From: Armatimonadota bacterium
GTDB lineage: Bacteria > Armatimonadota > Chthonomonadetes > Chthonomonadales > CAJBBX01
Length of the DNA stretch: 43,609 nucleotides
Assembly: GCA_026392115.1 (NCBI GenBank)
Contig: JAPLCQ010000146.1
Span: 1 to 43,609 of the forward strand
Reading direction: 5' to 3'
Positions 23,281 through 43,609 of this stretch are shown in pieces. Made by a program: the position numbers and the translations under genes. Below the pieces are notes generated by a model. It made no database searches. It was given only the letters and a program-made list of their open reading frames with translations, and was not told the origin of the DNA. Position 1 is the first letter of the stretch. Each line of letters begins with the position of its first letter.

Positions 23281-25119
23281 TCAGCGATAGCGGCTCGCCT
23301 GGGCCTCGAAGAGGACCGCGTAGGCGCCGTTCCGCTCCAGCAACTCGTCGTGAGAGCCCTCCTCCACCACGGCGCCGTCCTCCAGAACATAGATGTGGTC
23401 GGCCATGCGCACGGTGGAGAAGCGGTGGCTGACGATCAGCGCCGCGCGACCCTCCAGCATCCGGCGGAAGCTCTCGTGGAATGCCGCTTCCGCCAGCGGA
23501 TCCATGGCGCTGGTGGGCTCATCCAGCACCGTCAGGTCGGCCTGACGCACAATGGCCCGCGCCAACGCCACGCGCTGCCACTGGCCGCCGCTCAGTTCCG
23601 CTCCGTCGTCCAGCGCTCTGCCCAGGTGGGTGTCGAATCCGTCCGGCAGGCCCGCCGCGATGCCGTCCAGCCCAGCGAGCCGACCGGCCTCAAGGATGCG
23701 CGGGTCGTCGGGCGCCAGGTCCACGCAGCCCATGCGGATGTTCTCGCGCAAGGTCGCCTGGTAGCGCGTGGGCTCCTGCACGACCACGGCCAGGCGACGG
23801 CGCAGGGCCTCGGCGTCCATCGCCCGCAGGTCTACTCCGTCCATCGTCACGGCGCCCTCGTCGGGATCGTAGAGCCGCGCCAGCAGCTTCACTACCGTGC
23901 TCTTCCCCGCCCCGTTGGCGCCCACCAGCGCGACCACCTTGCCCGCGGGCAGCCGCAGCTTCAGGTCACGCAGGACGGGCCTCTCGAACCCGGGATACCG
24001 GAACGTGACACCGCGAAGCTCCATGCCCTGGGCCATGGGCGTCGGCGGCTCCACCGGGCGCTCCGGTGTCCGCACGCTCGGCTCCATGGCGAGGAACTCG
24101 AAGACGTTGCTCAGGAAGAGGCTGTCCCCGTACAGGCCGCCGATGCCGGCGAGCAGGCTCTGCAGGAACGCCTGCCCGCGCTGGAACGCCTGATAGAAGA
24201 GCACCAGGTCTCCCAGCGAGATGGAGCCGTTGACGGCGCGGCGCGCCACGATGGCGAAAGCGCCCAGCATGACGGCCGCGCCCGCGACCTGGGCCAGCGT
24301 CTCACCGGTGGCCCTGGCGCGAACGATGGCCAGCCGCTCACCCTTCAGGGTTCGACGCACGTCCATCCACCACGCCGCCACGTTCTGCCCCAGGCCGTTG
24401 AGCCGCAGCTCTTTCGCGTGGACCTCGCCGCAGAGCAGCCAACTCCAGTAGGTGGCCCTACGCTCTAGCTTGGTGCGGCCCCGAGCCCAGACGTAGAGGC
24501 GGCGCGAGTAGGCGGCTCGCAAGGCCATGCCTGGGACGGCCACGAGGATGATGACGACGCCGACCACCCAGTGAAACGCCAGCACGAGGGCGGCGATGCC
24601 GACCAGTGAGACCGAGTTCTGCAGCACCTGGGCGATGCCGTTCACGATGCCGAGGGGCCGGAAGGGCGCCTCGGACTGCGCACGGCGCAGTGCGTCGTTC
24701 GCGTCGCTGTTCTCGTAAAACGCGAGGTCCATGCGGATCGACTGCCGGTTCATGGCATCCAGCATGGTGTCGCTGACGGCGATGCCCTGAGCCTCGGCGG
24801 CAAGGGCCGAGAGGGCCGATGCGGCGGCGGACGCGGCCAGGACGCCGCCCCATGCCAGCAGGAGAGGCGCCAACCGGGCCATGGCGGCGTCCTTGTCGGG
24901 TTGGACGATGCCCTGGGTCACGGCGTCGACCACGAGCTTGAGCAGCCAGAGCGCGGCCAGCGGCAACACGCCCTGCGCCACCGTGAGGCCGGCGGTGCAG
25001 AGCGTCAGCGCCGGGGAGCTTCGCCAGACCAACCCCATGGCGCGCGCAATCCCGGCGGCGCGCTCCTTGATCGTCGCGGTCGGCCCTTCCGAAGGCGGCG
25101 TCGAGCGTGCGTCAGCCAC
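23281..25119 (-). CDS. ABC exporter, fused membrane and ATPase domains
   Basis: A protein of 612 residues starting at a GTG that overlaps the previous gene's stop by eight bases. Residues about 35-330 form the six-helix transmembrane domain. The nucleotide-binding domain follows, with Walker A GANGAGKST near residue 396, signature LSGGQWQRVALARA, Walker B LTVLDEPTSAMDP and switch His in LIVSHRFSTV. It is the common half-size exporter that works as a dimer; it has no C39 protease domain. Co-transcription with a PF14907-type nucleotidyltransferase is a pairing seen in some peptide natural product clusters, so export of a modified peptide is possible, but lipid or polysaccharide export is equally open. 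Confidence 0.92.
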   Translation of the reverse strand: MADARSTPPSEGPTATIKERAAGIARAMGLVWRSSPALTLCTAGLTVAQGVLPLAALWLLKLVVDAVTQGIVQPDKDAAMARLAPLLLAWGGVLAASAAASALSALAAEAQGIAVSDTMLDAMNRQSIRMDLAFYENSDANDALRRAQSEAPFRPLGIVNGIAQVLQNSVSLVGIAALVLAFHWVVGVVIILVAVPGMALRAAYSRRLYVWARGRTKLERRATYWSWLLCGEVHAKELRLNGLGQNVAAWWMDVRRTLKGERLAIVRARATGETLAQVAGAAVMLGAFAIVARRAVNGSISLGDLVLFYQAFQRGQAFLQSLLAGIGGLYGDSLFLSNVFEFLAMEPSVRTPERPVEPPTPMAQGMELRGVTFRYPGFERPVLRDLKLRLPAGKVVALVGANGAGKSTVVKLLARLYDPDEGAVTMDGVDLRAMDAEALRRRLAVVVQEPTRYQATLRENIRMGCVDLAPDDPRILEAGRLAGLDGIAAGLPDGFDTHLGRALDDGAELSGGQWQRVALARAIVRQADLTVLDEPTSAMDPLAEAAFHESFRRMLEGRAALIVSHRFSTVRMADHIYVLEDGAVVEEGSHDELLERNGAYAVLFEAQASRYR

Positions 25120-26395
25120 CGGCCAGCCACTCCATGAGACCCTCCACGCGCTTCTGCCGGGCCTGTAGCCTCAGTGTACGCGGCTCTCGCAGCGCGAGGC
25201 GCGCCAGATCGCCCCCGTGGCGTCTGACCACGTCGCGCCACCGCTGGGCGTAGCCGACGGCTCCCTGCCCTGGATAGAGGCGGTCGATGGTCGCCCGGTC
25301 GGGGAAGAGCGCCGAAGCCGCCTGACGAAGTCCGCCCGAACCGGCGCGCCGGTCCGCCAGGTCGGCCGCTCGCGGGCTTACCCGAGGCGCCGCCTGCGAC
25401 CGGCCATTGCTGCCCAGTACGAGCCCCACGGCCAGCTCACAGCGACGCGCCGCCTCCTGATCGTGTAATGCGGGGACGAGGGCGGCCAACACGTCCGACG
25501 GAACCGGCGTGCCCAGCAGGTCGCGGCTGAGGGCCAGCGCCAGCCATGTCTGCCGAGCCCCGCGCCAGGCCCGCGCGGCCGACGCCAGCCGCTCCCAGTC
25601 GAGCCCGCGCCCCGCGCGGCGAACGACGGCATCGATATCACAAAGGCCGCGCAGCGTAGCCACGTTGCCGTCCTCGTACGGGTGGATCGCGGTATGGATG
25701 ACGGTCTGCTCCGGGCACATGAGGCGAAGATCGAGGTCGCCCGCCGTACCGCCGACGGCGGACGCAAGGATTTCGTCGGTGCGTGGCGTGAATGGCCCGT
25801 GGATGCGGACCAGCCGCCAGTGCAACTCCACCACGAGGCGCGGATCGCCGGTCTTATAGACGATCTCGTTGTCCAGTTCCAGCCGCCCTTGCGCCGGCCG
25901 GTGAGGCTGCCACCCGCACTCGACCATGGCGTCGTGACAGGCCTCCACGCGGTCCGGGGCGATGATCAGGTCCACATCGGTCATGGTGCGCGCGCCGGGG
26001 TCGCCGTAGACGTCCCATGCCAGCCTGAACCCCTTCAGCGCCACCGGATCGGCCCCGCACCGGCGCACCAGGGGCAGGACCGGACGCAGCAGATGCGCCC
26101 TGGCGAGATTGGCGGCGGCGGTGGCGGCATGGGCGATGCGCAGGGCAGCAGCCGCCTCGGCAGGCGCACCGACAACCTTCCCGGCCTCCGACAGCCGTGC
26201 GAAGGCGAGGCCTGCCACGCCGTGGCGGCGAGCTTGGGCGGCCATTTCGCGCCAGGCTTCGGGGTCCGAGGCCTCGTCGGGCAACGGCCCCCGCGCGAGC
26301 GCCGCCAGCAGCAGACTGTGCCGTCCGCGCTCGGTTCGGGCCTCGTCATCATCAAACGCCTGGGCCGCGGCGCCCTGCTCGCGTTCACTCAGCAT
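25112..26395 (-). CDS. Nucleotidyltransferase-fold protein (PF14907 type)
   Basis: A protein of 427 residues. The central part has the nucleotidyltransferase_5 signature: VALKGFRLAWDVYGDPGART at about 118-137 followed by MTDVDLII, with Asp140 and Asp142 as likely metal ligands, and a CGWQPHR turn. The following region (LVVELHWRLV, AIHPYEDG, LCDIDAVV) also fits the family. The biochemical role of this family is largely unproven; members often sit with PqqD-like proteins, S26-type peptidases and exporters in peptide or polysaccharide loci. Start: ATG at 26395 is chosen over an in-frame GTG at 26425; neither has a clear ribosome site. It is divergent from phoU (80 bases between) and overlaps the exporter gene downstream, so those two form an operon. 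Confidence 0.82.
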   Translation of the reverse strand: MLSEREQGAAAQAFDDDEARTERGRHSLLLAALARGPLPDEASDPEAWREMAAQARRHGVAGLAFARLSEAGKVVGAPAEAAAALRIAHAATAAANLARAHLLRPVLPLVRRCGADPVALKGFRLAWDVYGDPGARTMTDVDLIIAPDRVEACHDAMVECGWQPHRPAQGRLELDNEIVYKTGDPRLVVELHWRLVRIHGPFTPRTDEILASAVGGTAGDLDLRLMCPEQTVIHTAIHPYEDGNVATLRGLCDIDAVVRRAGRGLDWERLASAARAWRGARQTWLALALSRDLLGTPVPSDVLAALVPALHDQEAARRCELAVGLVLGSNGRSQAAPRVSPRAADLADRRAGSGGLRQAASALFPDRATIDRLYPGQGAVGYAQRWRDVVRRHGGDLARLALREPRTLRLQARQKRVEGLMEWLAGG

Positions 26396-26475
26396 GGCTA
26401 TCAGTATGCACCCATACGAGCGCACCGGCGAACGCGGGTATCCTACCGACTATCCGTAGCCCCAGGGAGATCAGA

Positions 26476-27161: not shown

Positions 27162-28949
27162 TCAGCCCGGCGGAGCCGTCTCCACGGCTGCGCCGTCGGG
27201 GCCCGCCTCATCATCGGCAAACTGCAGGCCGTGGAGGCGCGCGTAGAGCCCCTTGCCCTGCAGCAGGTCGTGGTGCGTGCCGCATTCCACCACGCGCCCC
27301 GCCTCCAGCACCACGATGCGGTCGGCCCTGCGCACGGTGGCCAGGCGGTGGGCGATGACAAAGCAGGTGCGCCCGCGCATCAGCCTGCCCATGGCCTCCT
27401 GCACCAGCCGCTCCGACTCGGAGTCCTGCGCCGATGTGGCCTCGTCCAGGATCAGCACCCGCGGGTCGCGCAGGATGGCACGGGCAATGGCCAAACGCTG
27501 CTTCTGCCCCACCGAGAGGCGCGTGCCGCGCTCTCACACCTCGGTCTCGTAGCCCTGCGGCATGGCGGTGATGAAATCATGCGCGTTGGCGGCGCGGGCC
27601 GCGGCCTCGACCTCCTCGCCCGTTGCGCCGGACCGGCCGAAGGCGATGTTCGCGCGCACCGTGGTGGCGAATAGGAAGGGCTCCTGCGGCACCACCGCGA
27701 TGAGGTCCCGCAAGGCCCGCGGCGGCACGTCCCGGATGTCGACCCCGTCGATCAGCAGCGATCCCGCCGTGACGTCGTAGAGCCGCGGCAGCAGGGAGAC
27801 CAGAGTGGTCTTGCCCGAGCCGCTGGGGCCCACGAGCGCCGCGACCTCGCCCGCCGTAACGGTGAGGGAGACATCGTGCAGGACGTCGGGTTCATCCGGA
27901 TCGTACTGAAAGCCGACGTCGCGGAACTCCACCCCGGAAGCGCAGGGAGGGGCCAGGCGCGGCCGGTCGGGCTGAGGCTCCGACGGCGCGTCGAGAAACT
28001 CGAACACACGGTCGGCTGCGCCGATCGCCGCCGCCACCTGCGAGAAGAGGTTCACGAAGGAGCTGGCCGGGCCGAACAGCATGCCGAGCACGTTCAGGGT
28101 CATCACCACGTTGCCCGCGGTGATCTCGCCGCGGATCGCCATGCGGGCGCCGACCACCATGGTCAGCATCATGCCCACGGTGGCGATGATGCCGGTGACG
28201 GAGCCGTTCGCCGCGCCGAGCGCGGCCATGCGGACGCGGGCGCCGATGAGCCGGACCACCGAGGCCATGAAGCGCGCGCCCTCGTCGCCGGCCCGGCCGA
28301 AGACCCGCACCTCGCGCGCTCCGCTGACGCTCTCCTGCAGGACGTTCTGCACGCGCTCGGTCTCGTCTCGCGTCTGACGGCCCGCCGTGCGCAGCGCAGG
28401 TCCGAACCGGCTCAGGGCGACGGCGAAGAGGACGGGCACCGGCAGCCCGATGGCGGCCAGTTTGGGGCTCTGCACCACCATGATGGCGGCGGCGGCCGTG
28501 GCCGTCAGCAGGTTGGTAAGGATGTCCACCAGGGTCGACGAGTAGAGGCCCTGAAGGGCGTCCACGTCGCTCTGGACCACCGACATGACCCCGCCCGTGC
28601 GCCGGCGATCCAGGGCCGCCATGGGCAGCCGGTGCACATGGTCGAACAGGTCGCGGCGCATATCGGCTGCGGCCCGCTCCCCCGCAAGCGCGAACAGCCA
28701 CGACCGGCCGATCGCCGCCAGAGAGCCGAGCACCGAAGTCGCAAGGGCGACAAGCGTCAGCAGGTTCAGCCAGTGCAGCCGCTGGTCGGCCGTACCGTGC
28801 TGCGGCCACATCACCTTGTCGATCAGGTACTTGGTGAAGAAGGGCCACACGAAACCCGACGCGGTGACGATCAGGGCGAAGGCCAACGCGGCCAGCTGTA
28901 GCGCCCAGTGGGCGGCCATATAGCGCAGGGCTCGGCGCAGTGTCTGCAT
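27162..28949 (-). pseudogene. ABC exporter gene interrupted by an in-frame TGA before the signature motif
   Basis: The frame from ATG at 28949 encodes a half-size exporter: six-helix membrane domain, then Walker A GPSGSGKTT and a normal Q-loop (VPQEPFLFATTVRANIAFG). After 471 codons, at QGYETEV, an in-frame TGA at 27534-27536 takes the place where homologues have Gly (GYETEVGERG). Reading continues in the same frame with [19 protein letters not shown] (signature LSVGQ), Walker [13 protein letters not shown] and switch His in VIAHRLATV, to a proper stop at 27162. A single base change from GGA would explain it. As written, the product would lack signature, Walker B and switch and so be inactive. 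A fresh mutation or a sequencing error are the main options, as nothing else has decayed. Confidence 0.85.
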
Positions 28950-41322: not shown

Positions 41323-41341
41323 TTGGCCTTTGCGCGGCCAA
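41323..41341. promoter_or_regulatory. Inverted repeat directly upstream of the -35 box, possible operator
   Basis: TTGGCC (41323-41328) and GGCCAA (41336-41341) are perfect inverted half-sites spaced by seven bases, ending two bases before the -35 hexamer. The geometry suits binding of a dimeric regulator. A second short inverted pair, TGACG and CGTCA, flanks the likely transcription start at about 41371-41390. No regulator gene is seen in the window. Confidence 0.45.
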
Positions 41342-41343
41342 CA

Positions 41344-41371
41344 TTGACTAGACGGGCGTTGGCGGTATAAT
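41344..41371 (+). promoter_or_regulatory. Sigma70-type promoter of the peptide-modification locus
   Basis: TTGACT at 41344-41349 and TATAAT at 41366-41371 are separated by 16 bases. This is the clearest housekeeping-type promoter in the window and lies about 100 bases before the precursor-peptide start, giving a leader of about 95 bases. Confidence 0.75.
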
Positions 41372-41473
41372 GACGGCTGAGTATACGTCATCCGGCGCTC
41401 AGTCACGCCGACCGTCGTGTGGCGGCGCGTGTTTGTGGCTGCGAGCGCTCGCACTTCAGGGGGAATCTTGAAC

Positions 41474-41620
41474 ATGAATGCACAGAACACCCAGACGAAG
41501 CTTCCGTACGAGAAGCCGTCGGCTACGCTGCTTGAGCTCAAGCCCGAAGAGCGCCTGATGGCCTGCGGCAAGCTCAAGGGCGGACCCGGTAGCTGCGGCT
41601 TCACTCCCAAGCTCAGCTGA
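41474..41620 (+). CDS. Putative RiPP precursor peptide with YEKP leader motif and two core Cys
   Basis: A 48-residue peptide starting at ATG 41474, with AGGGGGA about nine bases upstream. The leader half contains LPYEKPSATLLEL at 10-22; the YxxP element is the type of motif bound by PqqD-like recognition domains (as YxxPxL in lasso peptides). After the acidic KPEE come the likely core residues: LMACGKLKGG, then PGSCGFTPKLS, with Cys31 and Cys41 and several Gly. The Cys pair could be the site of radical thioether or other crosslinks. Evidence is its size, position just ahead of a PqqD-like gene and a radical SAM/SPASM gene, and the strong promoter. A frame extending up to 41417 exists but would ignore the ribosome site. 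No second precursor is seen. Confidence 0.75.
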   Translation: MNAQNTQTKLPYEKPSATLLELKPEERLMACGKLKGGPGSCGFTPKLS

Positions 41621-41642
41621 TCTCCTACAACCAACCGATTCG

Positions 41643-41678
41643 CAACCGCGTGCGCCACTGATGTGGGGTGCGCGGTTG
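41643..41678 (+). terminator. Strong hairpin between precursor and modification genes, likely attenuator
   Basis: CAACCGCG plus TGCGCCAC (41643-41658) pairs with GTGGGGTG plus CGCGGTTG (41663-41678): a 16-position stem with one mismatch and two wobble pairs around a TGAT loop. It is followed by an AT-rich stretch (TTATCGTATAGCTT). Placed 22 bases after the precursor stop and 14 before the PqqD start, it should end most transcripts after the peptide gene, keeping peptide levels above enzyme levels. Confidence 0.7.
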
Positions 41679-41692
41679 TTATCGTATAGCTT

Positions 41693-41974
41693 ATGATCCG
41701 CAAAGACGGTTTCGTAGTTCGCGACGTCGGCGGCTCCGCGGTCATCGTGCCGACCGGAGCGCGCGTCCTTGACCTGAACGGCCTGGTCGTGCTGAACGAC
41801 ACAGGCCGTCTGGTTTGGGATGCCCTCTCCGCTGAACGCTCTGAGGACGAACTCGTTCAGTGCCTGACTGATAGGTACGATGTCTCGCCGGACCAGGCCC
41901 GCGCCGATGTCGATGAACTGCTGCAGCAGTTTGCGGATCTGGGAATCATCCAATATGCAGGGCAGCCGATCTGA
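41693..41974 (+). CDS. PqqD-family peptide recognition protein (RRE)
   Basis: A 93-residue protein of PqqD type. The N-terminal strands (MIRKDGFVVRDVGGSAVIVP) lead to the family signature VLDLNGLVVLNDTGRLVWDAL, split as VLDLNGLVVLND and TGRLVWDAL, followed by two helices with LVQCLTDRYDVSPDQARADV and a C-terminal LLQQFADLGII. PqqD proteins bind the leader of a precursor peptide and present it to the partner radical SAM enzyme. It has no clear Shine-Dalgarno site, fitting low expression. The radical SAM gene overlaps its end. The true PQQ pathway is unlikely because no pqqA-, pqqB- or pqqC-like gene is present. Confidence 0.9.
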   Translation: MIRKDGFVVRDVGGSAVIVPTGARVLDLNGLVVLNDTGRLVWDALSAERSEDELVQCLTDRYDVSPDQARADVDELLQQFADLGIIQYAGQPI

Positions 41975-43046
41975 CTGTGCCATCGTTGAGCGCTCCATGC
42001 TGGAGCGTGCAACCGCAATCCGCCAACCCGTCTCAGGCACCTTCGAGCTAACCGCCCGCTGCAACCTCGCATGCGGGATGTGCTACATCCGCAAGCCGGC
42101 GAACGATCCCCACGAGCGCGCCAACGAGTTGACCGCCGCCCAGTGGGTGGATGTCACCCAGCAGGCCGTCGATGCCGGAATGGTATTCCTCACCCTCACC
42201 GGCGGTGAGATCCTGATCCGCAAGGACTTCTTCGAGCTATACGAGCCCATGACACGCATGGGCCTGGTCATCACGCTCTTCACCAACGGCACGGCCATCA
42301 CCCCGGCGGTCGCCGAGCGCCTCGCGAAGAACCCCCCGCTGCGCGTCGAGATCTCCCTCTACGGCGCCACGGAGACGGCCTACGACCGGGTCACCGGCAC
42401 GGCCAACGCATACGACAAGTGCCTTCGCGGCATCCGACTGCTTGCGGAAGCCGGCGTCAACGTCGTCGTGAAGTCGACGGTGACCAAGTACAACGCCCAC
42501 GAGCTAGACCCGATGAAGCGCATGGCGGCCGAGTGGGGGGTCCCCTTCTTCGCGGCGTCGCTCCTGACCCAGAGGCGCGACGACGACCTGTCGCAGATCC
42601 AGGACTTCAGGCGCCAGGCCAAGGACGCGGTGGACCTTGAGGCGGCCGACCCCGCCACTGCGGCCGAGATTCGCGACGCCCTCGCCGCTGCGCCTCCTCC
42701 GCCGGACGCCGATCCGTTCTATTGCTCCGCGGGCAAGTCGTCGTTCACCATCGGCCCGTTCGGCCAGATGAGCGCATGCATCGACCTGCCGCTTCCCGGC
42801 GCGCCGGTGGCCGAGATTGGCTTCGCGGAAGCGTGGAAGCGCGTCTGCGAGTTTGTGGGAACCGTGCCGGTGAACACCTCCTGCTCCTCGTGCGCCCTGC
42901 GCAACATGTGCCCGAGCTGCCCGGCATGGTCCTATGGTGAGAACCGCACGCTGAACCAGCCCGTGAAGTACCTGTGCGACCTGGCCGCGGAGCGCAAGCG
43001 CCGGTTCGGAGCGCCCGAGCCGCGCATCCAGGCCGCCGGCGGTTAG
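41955..43046 (+). CDS. Radical SAM/SPASM peptide-modifying enzyme
   Basis: A protein of 363 residues from ATG 41955 (an alternative ATG lies at 41997). The radical SAM core begins at ELTARCNLACGMCY, with cluster ligands Cys36, Cys40 and Cys43, followed by LTGGEILIR (GGE motif for SAM) and ISLYGATETAYDRVTG. The C-terminal SPASM region has the expected Cys series: FYCSAG, MSACIDLP, CSSCALRNMCPSCPAW and YLCDLAAERK, enough for two auxiliary 4Fe-4S clusters. Such enzymes install thioether, C-C or C-O links in peptides. It overlaps the PqqD gene by 20 bases and ends seven bases before the peptidase-like gene, so all are one unit. The substrate is most likely the peptide at 41474. Confidence 0.93.
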   Translation: MQGSRSDCAIVERSMLERATAIRQPVSGTFELTARCNLACGMCYIRKPANDPHERANELTAAQWVDVTQQAVDAGMVFLTLTGGEILIRKDFFELYEPMTRMGLVITLFTNGTAITPAVAERLAKNPPLRVEISLYGATETAYDRVTGTANAYDKCLRGIRLLAEAGVNVVVKSTVTKYNAHELDPMKRMAAEWGVPFFAASLLTQRRDDDLSQIQDFRRQAKDAVDLEAADPATAAEIRDALAAAPPPPDADPFYCSAGKSSFTIGPFGQMSACIDLPLPGAPVAEIGFAEAWKRVCEFVGTVPVNTSCSSCALRNMCPSCPAWSYGENRTLNQPVKYLCDLAAERKRRFGAPEPRIQAAGG

Positions 43047-43053
43047 GCGGGCC

Positions 43054-43566
43054 ATGCCGAGCGACGACGGCAGGACCACCCGCGAGGTCTCCACGCGCCA
43101 CCTGGCGCCCCTGATCGAGGAGGCGCTGGCGGCAGGCCGAACGGTGCGCATGACGGCCACGGGCGGCAGCATGATCCCGTTCATCGGCCACGGCGAGACC
43201 GTGGAGCTGGTCCCTGCCGCGCATCGGCGCCTGGCTCCCGGCGACATTGTGCTGGCCCGAATGCCATCGTCGGAGTTTGTCCTGCACCGCGTCGCGAAGG
43301 CCGCGGGGCACAGCGTGTTCCTACAGGGCGACGCGCAGTCGGTGGCCGTAGGTCCCGTGAATCGGGACGCCGTTCTTGCCGTAGCTTCCGGCGTCTTCCG
43401 CGGCAACCGGCGGCTGGCGCTCGACTCGGGCCTCATGCGCGCGGCGGGCCTCGTCTGGATGCGTGGCGCGCCCATCCGCCCGTTCGCCATCCGGGCGACG
43501 CGCTCCGGCAAGGCCCTGGTGGGAATCCGTCGGCGGCGACCGTCAGCCGACGCGCCAGTCGCGTGA
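43054..43566 (+). CDS. S24/S26-type (Ser-His) signal-peptidase-like protein
   Basis: A protein of 170 residues. Ser39 lies in GGSMIPFIGHGE, the nucleophile motif of S24/S26 peptidases. The bacterial SPase I lysine motif is replaced by FVLHRV with His78, followed by LQGDAQ with Asp93, as in the Ser-His type found in archaeal, ER and SipW signal peptidases. There is no clear membrane anchor at the N-terminus, unlike most signal peptidases. In this locus it may remove the leader of the modified peptide; a non-peptidase role cannot be excluded. The start ATG follows the radical SAM gene by seven bases. Confidence 0.82.
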   Translation: MPSDDGRTTREVSTRHLAPLIEEALAAGRTVRMTATGGSMIPFIGHGETVELVPAAHRRLAPGDIVLARMPSSEFVLHRVAKAAGHSVFLQGDAQSVAVGPVNRDAVLAVASGVFRGNRRLALDSGLMRAAGLVWMRGAPIRPFAIRATRSGKALVGIRRRRPSADAPVA

Positions 43567-43609
43567 CCACCACCGACGCACCGGCGTCGCGGACGGAACT
43601 GGCGGACGC
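43563..43609 (+). CDS. Start of a further gene running off the window
   Basis: A GTG at 43563 overlaps the TGA of the peptidase-like gene (GTGA), the same tight coupling used elsewhere here. It reads MTTTDAPASRTELAD to the edge. Fifteen residues do not allow a family call; by analogy with such loci it might be a nucleotidyltransferase, exporter or kinase, which is a guess. Confidence 0.5.
   Translation, partial: MTTTDAPASRTELAD

Follow-up and report, generated by a model that had tools for sequence, protein, structure and literature searches.

In the little-studied Armatimonadota, we found a compact locus that probably directs the synthesis of a RiPP that undergoes both radical SAM modification and phosphorylation, with Ser48 of the precursor as the phosphorylated residue and a signal-peptidase-I-like (SpI-like) protein cutting off the leader. 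The window, i.e. the whole stretch of 43,609 nucleotides that was analysed, is one entire contig of a 5.7-Mb genome. At its 3' end, on the forward strand, a promoter is followed by the gene of a 48-residue peptide, a hairpin, the genes of a PqqD-type protein, a radical SAM/SPASM enzyme and an S24/S26 protein, and the start of a nucleotidyltransferase gene. The original prediction had proposed a radical-SAM-modified peptide pathway here; every part it had named is present, and all parts, from the promoter through the coupled last gene, are conserved in two sister species, which share the window's operon and whose SPASM enzymes are 89% identical. All enzyme frames of the locus are open; the last operon gene is cut by the contig end, so that the cluster is incomplete at its 3' end in the window. 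The prediction had missed the nucleotidyltransferase, a kinase encoded in trans and a conserved C-terminal Ser, which together place the locus with the phosphorylated RiPPs and not with radical-SAM RiPPs alone.

The peptide gene (41474-41620, forward strand, as are all features of the locus) counts 48 codons and is preceded by AGGGGGAA. Its product, MNAQNTQTKLPYEKPSATLLELKPEERLMACGKLKGGPGSCGFTPKLS, has Y12..P15 and two cysteines in 48 residues (Cys31 and Cys41), is 94-96% identical in the two other species, with several of the codon changes being synonymous, and keeps its leader, both cysteines and the C-terminal Ser across the three species of the genus. The leader motif, from Y12..P15 to EERLMA30 (41507-41563), is predicted to serve RRE binding and peptidase recognition and resembles the [Y/W]xxPx motif of PMC13381572. 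The predicted core (C-G-K...C41...Ser48; 41564-41617) starts from the presumed cleavage point at Cys31 and ends in the predicted phosphorylation site, Ser48. Scanning the peptides against Pfam and NCBIfam matched no family. The sigma-70-type promoter of the peptide gene (TTGACT-16 nt-TATAAT, 41344-41371), noted earlier as strong, has 11 of 12 consensus matches and a -10 box identical in both sister species, and is the sole match of its kind in 3.8 kb, where shuffled sequence gives 0.3. A terminator-like match lies within the 5' leader (41413-41429); such matches occur near the shuffle expectation. Between the peptide and enzyme genes, an RNA hairpin with a stem of 12 + 4 bp (41642-41679; -34.1 kcal/mol for the stretch, z = -4.1) is kept in all three species with a weak U tract after it, and is possibly an attenuator or a transcript stabiliser.

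The PqqD-type protein (41693-41974; PF05402, 63.8 bits) is a discrete RiPP recognition element (RRE) that adjoins a short precursor with a conserved leader and a variable core, the arrangement by which a RiPP pathway is recognised. The start of the following gene overlaps pqqD and encodes a radical SAM/SPASM enzyme of 363 residues (41955-43046; PF04055, 75.6 bits), in which CxxxCxxC and seven SPASM cysteines (C257, C275, C310, C313, C319, C322, C341) are invariant among 13 relatives, as befits a peptide maturase of this type. Its structural model (pLDDT 85.5) matches the fold of SkfB, SuiB, BlsE, CteB and PqqE, and the conserved C-x-K at the core start and the second Cys would be natural target residues for it. 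Known families were not recovered: all sactipeptide, SCIFF and PqqE models scored far below their cut-offs (PqqE 88.0 bits against 381.35), and so did the PqqD equivalog on the PqqD-type protein (20.7 against 46) and the SynChlorMet models (ScmE 87.8 and ScmF 87.2 against 400, ScmD 19 against 100, and ScmC 30.5 against 125 on the kinase of a relative).

The S24/S26 protein (43054-43566) had been described as Ser-His peptidase-like, and Ser39, His78 and Asp93 are indeed invariant in 13 relatives. Its model (pLDDT 84) most resembles, though weakly, the lambda-repressor/signal-peptidase fold, with a chain of the human signal peptidase complex among the matches. A precedent for its predicted role as leader peptidase is LppS, which is inactivated by changes at S29, H68 or D93 (PMC13381572); the Ser-His spacing of 39 residues is equal in both, whereas His and Asp are 15 residues apart here and 25 in LppS. 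With a GTGA overlap, the coupled gene that had been noticed behind it starts at 43563, and its first 47 bases are in the window (43563-43609). In the sister species this gene encodes a 408-residue nucleotidyltransferase of the NTP_transf_5 family (PF14907, 107.8 bits). Its counterpart in the genome of the window starts at base 5 of contig C158, which points to a contig break inside the gene; the start of C158 is very probably its continuation. The operons of the sister genomes hold no MsbA-like transporter. ABC exporters and a second nucleotidyltransferase lie 12-15 kb from the locus in all three species; in the window, on the reverse strand, the second NTP_transf_5-type gene (25112-26425), a candidate partner or export locus, stands between two ABC exporter genes. 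One of these (23281-25119; permease and ATPase), a candidate exporter, overlaps it. The other (27162-28949) has one in-frame TGA preceding the signature motif, either a real nonsense change or an assembly error, and is an intact 595-residue frame in both sister species.

The original prediction would have failed if peptides of this type had been missing beside related enzymes in other genomes, and it withstood this test: leader-matched two-Cys peptides adjoin SPASM enzymes of 45-52% identity in many unrelated bacteria. Leader-matched peptides were found beside related enzymes in family relatives, Candidatus Competibacter, Lamprocystis, Methylococcaceae, Cereibacter, Desulfocapsa, Bryobacterales (Acidobacteria), Anaerolineae (Chloroflexi), a PVC bacterium and others, and the gene set occurs in about ten bacterial groups. 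Carriers are nevertheless rare and scattered (1 in 398 genomes in a phylum-wide search round Competibacter), a plasmid collection held no close relatives, and at locus G070 no precursor was found. Weak peptide matches such as L007 and L008 were taken as chance; the cluster genes are absent beside them. The peptides share YxxP, a hydrophobic stretch and then E-E-R-L-[LM]-x-C-x-K, with mostly Ala, Ser or Gly preceding the core Cys, which would fit the preference of a signal-peptidase-like enzyme, and their cores differ strongly between species.

The Cereibacter ovatus precursor (L053, 6361-6567), from a kinase-free cluster, has a tandem core of GNYPSPNEPCDC and GNYPSPNSPCDC, and its relatives in Methylococcaceae and Lamprocystis have GNYPGTGTPCGC-like cores. 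Precursors of Oscillospiraceae (L066-L075, L082, L086, L111) carry another leader type, YxKPEIxFExFxLSxNIAG-C, nearly all end in LFNS or IFNS and adjoin HprK, a SPASM enzyme and PqqD; they form a large related family in gut bacteria that has no NCBIfam model. Orphan peptides with the same leader as in the window and a C-terminal Ser (L037, 8700-10346; L025/L040, G009:C152 and G006:C28) lie directly downstream of a secreted protein, which has a TED-domain match in L037, where a nucleotidyltransferase gene comes next and PqqD and radical SAM genes are absent. The genome of the window also has a separate RiPP-like locus (L145, G000:C169, 6831-10242). It has two almost identical precursor genes whose products bear repeats rich in His and Asp (HTDxHTD), together with genes for a nucleotidyltransferase, a protein of PqqD size and a distantly HprK-like one, and lacks a radical SAM enzyme.

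Among 80 related loci, scanned with home-built profiles, the PqqD-type protein, SPASM enzyme, HprK-like kinase, SpI-like protein and nucleotidyltransferase co-occur in many orders. An HprK-like gene, of a family that keeps the P-loop, a His and a DDR motif, is usual beside the related peptides and enzymes. The window's cluster has no kinase gene, nor does the operon of the sister genomes, and each of the three genomes of the genus encodes one at a different site. The P-loop (GHSGAGKST), the His and the DDR motif are all retained in this trans kinase, which shares 40-44% identity with its cis counterparts in sister genera. It forms a two-gene operon with a WecG/TagA/CpsF-type glycosyltransferase (a name assigned by reading the sequence, without a profile match) and could therefore serve another pathway. 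Within the family, the kinase is present in exactly those six of the 12 genomes that have the cluster, some of the six sharing one genus.

The presence of the kinase goes together with the end of the peptide. In 39 of the 40 loci whose genome has a strong kinase, i.e. one of 150 bits or more in cis or one found in trans, the peptide ends in Ser, the exception being L057 with a terminal Val; this is the case in none of the eight loci without a strong kinase in the whole genome (two of Methylococcaceae, one each of Lamprocystis, Cereibacter and Syntrophus, and three of Clostridia). Loci with a weak kinase-like gene (107-132 bits), excluded from both counts, are mixed: Ser is the last residue in L106 and L193, and another residue in L085, L195, L196 and L204. 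The precursors were picked by a leader profile that made no use of the C-terminus, with four added by hand, all non-Ser, and the terminal Ser is preceded by two freely varying residues. Moreover, the window's genus and L194/G063, the two groups whose peptides end in Ser although their clusters hold no kinase, both have one elsewhere in the genome. A Fisher test gives p = 2e-8, a crude value since the rows are related. Corrected for relatedness on the enzyme tree, independent pairs stand at about 3 to 0 for the link and never opposite to it, which is not significant because only about three pairs are informative.

While the genes, their conservation and co-occurrences and the Ser rule are observed, we infer the enzymatic steps, their order, the cleavage point and the product as follows. 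The PqqD-type protein would bind the YxxP leader of the 48-residue peptide, and the SPASM enzyme would modify the short two-Cys core starting with C-x-K, probably by a Cys-based or Lys-based crosslink. The SpI-like protein would cut the leader near EERLMA/C, and the HPr-kinase-like enzyme, supplied in trans in the window's genome and from within the cluster in relatives, would phosphorylate the C-terminal Ser48. Onto the phosphate, as happens in pseudomycoidin, the NTP_transf_5 protein may transfer another group, and Ser48 is perhaps glycosylated as well. The combination of radical SAM modification with phospho-tailoring is suggested by the fact that gene set and gene order recur, together with leader-matched peptides, in distant phyla. 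For the window it is supported by the match of the kinase, peptidase and nucleotidyltransferase families to LppK, LppS and LppN, which belong to an experimentally proven pathway (PMC13381572), and to the tailoring enzymes of paeninodin and pseudomycoidin (PMC8498205), and the Ser rule, the finding of the trans kinase and the co-occurrence of kinase and cluster argue for a RiPP of this kind. The Val end of L057, the mixed weak-kinase loci, the low number of informative pairs for the Ser-kinase link and the glycosyltransferase operon of the trans kinase count against it.

A simpler product would be a RiPP of the sactipeptide or ranthipeptide type, in which the SPASM enzyme makes Cys thioethers and the SpI-like protein cuts the leader, Ser48 being left unmodified and the kinase being incidental. 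The two conserved core cysteines, the seven-Cys SPASM domain, the nearest solved enzymes (those whose folds the model matches) and the kinase-free operon of the window would all suit such a product. We consider it improbable, as kinase and nucleotidyltransferase genes follow the cluster across phyla and within the family, peptide ends change with kinase loss and the family models fail. Sactipeptide maturases (SkfB, AlbA) and ranthipeptide systems share the SPASM enzyme and Cys-containing core but have a fused recognition domain, whereas that of the locus is discrete and is joined by nucleotidyltransferase, SpI-like and, in relatives, kinase genes.

A PqqD protein with a SPASM enzyme is also the layout of PQQ and mycofactocin synthesis, and the models of mycofactocin and heme maturation rank high among the matches, though all below threshold. 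That the peptide is not secreted but forms the scaffold of a redox cofactor, or serves another protein as a modification tag, is nonetheless very unlikely: the core sequence differs strongly from species to species, while that of a cofactor precursor stays constant, and dedicated dehydrogenase or cofactor genes were not seen beside the cluster in the sister genomes. It is hardly credible, finally, that the locus has lost its function in this genus, or is losing it, with the kinase gone from the operon. The absence of a cis kinase and the in-frame TGA of the exporter in the window could be read that way, but the three species share the promoter, the hairpin and, in the peptide, the leader, both cysteines and the terminal Ser, the enzyme frames are open and the kinase is present in trans.

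The reading as a radical-SAM-modified and phosphorylated RiPP has its closest parallel in the linear polyphosphorylated peptides (LPPs; lppA-K-B-S-D-N) of Paenibacillus alginolyticus (Popov et al., May 2026; PMC13381572), of which a peptidase cuts the leader with help of the RRE and a kinase phosphorylates Ser3. Both have a discrete RRE, a YxxP leader, an SpI-like Ser-His-Asp protein that is the proven (LPP) or predicted (here) leader peptidase, an NTP transferase and variable cores, with peptidase, RRE and transferase in one cluster. An HprK-like kinase is encoded in both; that of LPP is in the cluster, whereas that of the window's genus is in trans (in cis in relatives) and its role in the pathway is a prediction. 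An MsbA-like transporter, a further mark of LPP clusters, is missing from the operon of the sister genomes, the candidate exporters lying 12-15 kb away. Of the LPP leader consensus, YxxPxVLxHQxIxFETxxS, the window leader YEKPSATLLELKPEERLM agrees only at YxxP and a Glu at motif position 15. LPPs occur in Bacillota, are phosphorylated at an internal Ser, which counts against our assignment of the C-terminal Ser48, and have no radical SAM enzyme in the main text of that paper; the locus described here has a SPASM enzyme, a two-Cys core and a conserved C-terminal Ser, and is found in many other phyla. In paeninodin and pseudomycoidin, an HprK-like kinase acts on the C-terminal Ser and a nucleotidyltransferase adds hexose to the phosphate (PMC8498205). 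These share with the locus a lasso-type RRE, the leader motif and the kinase/nucleotidyltransferase tailoring families, but they use a lasso cyclase and B2 peptidase where the locus has a radical SAM enzyme. A lasso peptide reading was dropped, since the translations of the operon and its immediate neighbours in G001/G002, on reading, revealed neither a macrolactam cyclase nor a B2 leader peptidase. The SynChlorMet cassette (NCBIfam ScmC-ScmF) likewise unites a PqqD-type protein, SPASM enzymes and an HprK-like protein, with several SPASM enzymes instead of one.

About 300 lasso-type RREs adjoining radical SAM enzymes had come up with RRE-Finder and were counted only as false positives (PMC7470986), and in open-access literature text we found no earlier description of SynChlorMet, of the leader motif or of a class combining radical SAM and phospho-tailoring. 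The radical-SAM peptide pathway of the original prediction is supported, but its novelty is smaller than had been hoped, because a paper of 2026 already describes this module in a form that lacks the radical enzyme (PMC13381572): new are the link between Ser and kinase and the radical-SAM variant, and already known is the kinase/peptidase/nucleotidyltransferase module of the LPPs.

The locus joins radical-SAM maturation and HprK/nucleotidyltransferase phospho-tailoring (lasso peptides, LPPs), which have been treated separately so far. As a tentative and rather doubtful generalisation, the loci might form a cross-phylum RiPP class in which the product bears a radical-SAM change near its N-terminal Cys-x-Lys and its invariant C-terminal Ser carries a sugar or nucleotide linked through phosphate. 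Since the trans kinase adjoins a WecG/TagA/CpsF-type transferase, the peptide may be tethered by this phosphate-linked tag to a glycan of the cell surface. Moreover, the gene set predicts the phosphorylation site of the peptide, and the Ser rule (a C-terminal Ser with the kinase, otherwise not) provides a simple predictor, applicable to many clusters without annotation in Armatimonadota, Proteobacteria, Acidobacteria, Chloroflexi and gut Clostridia.
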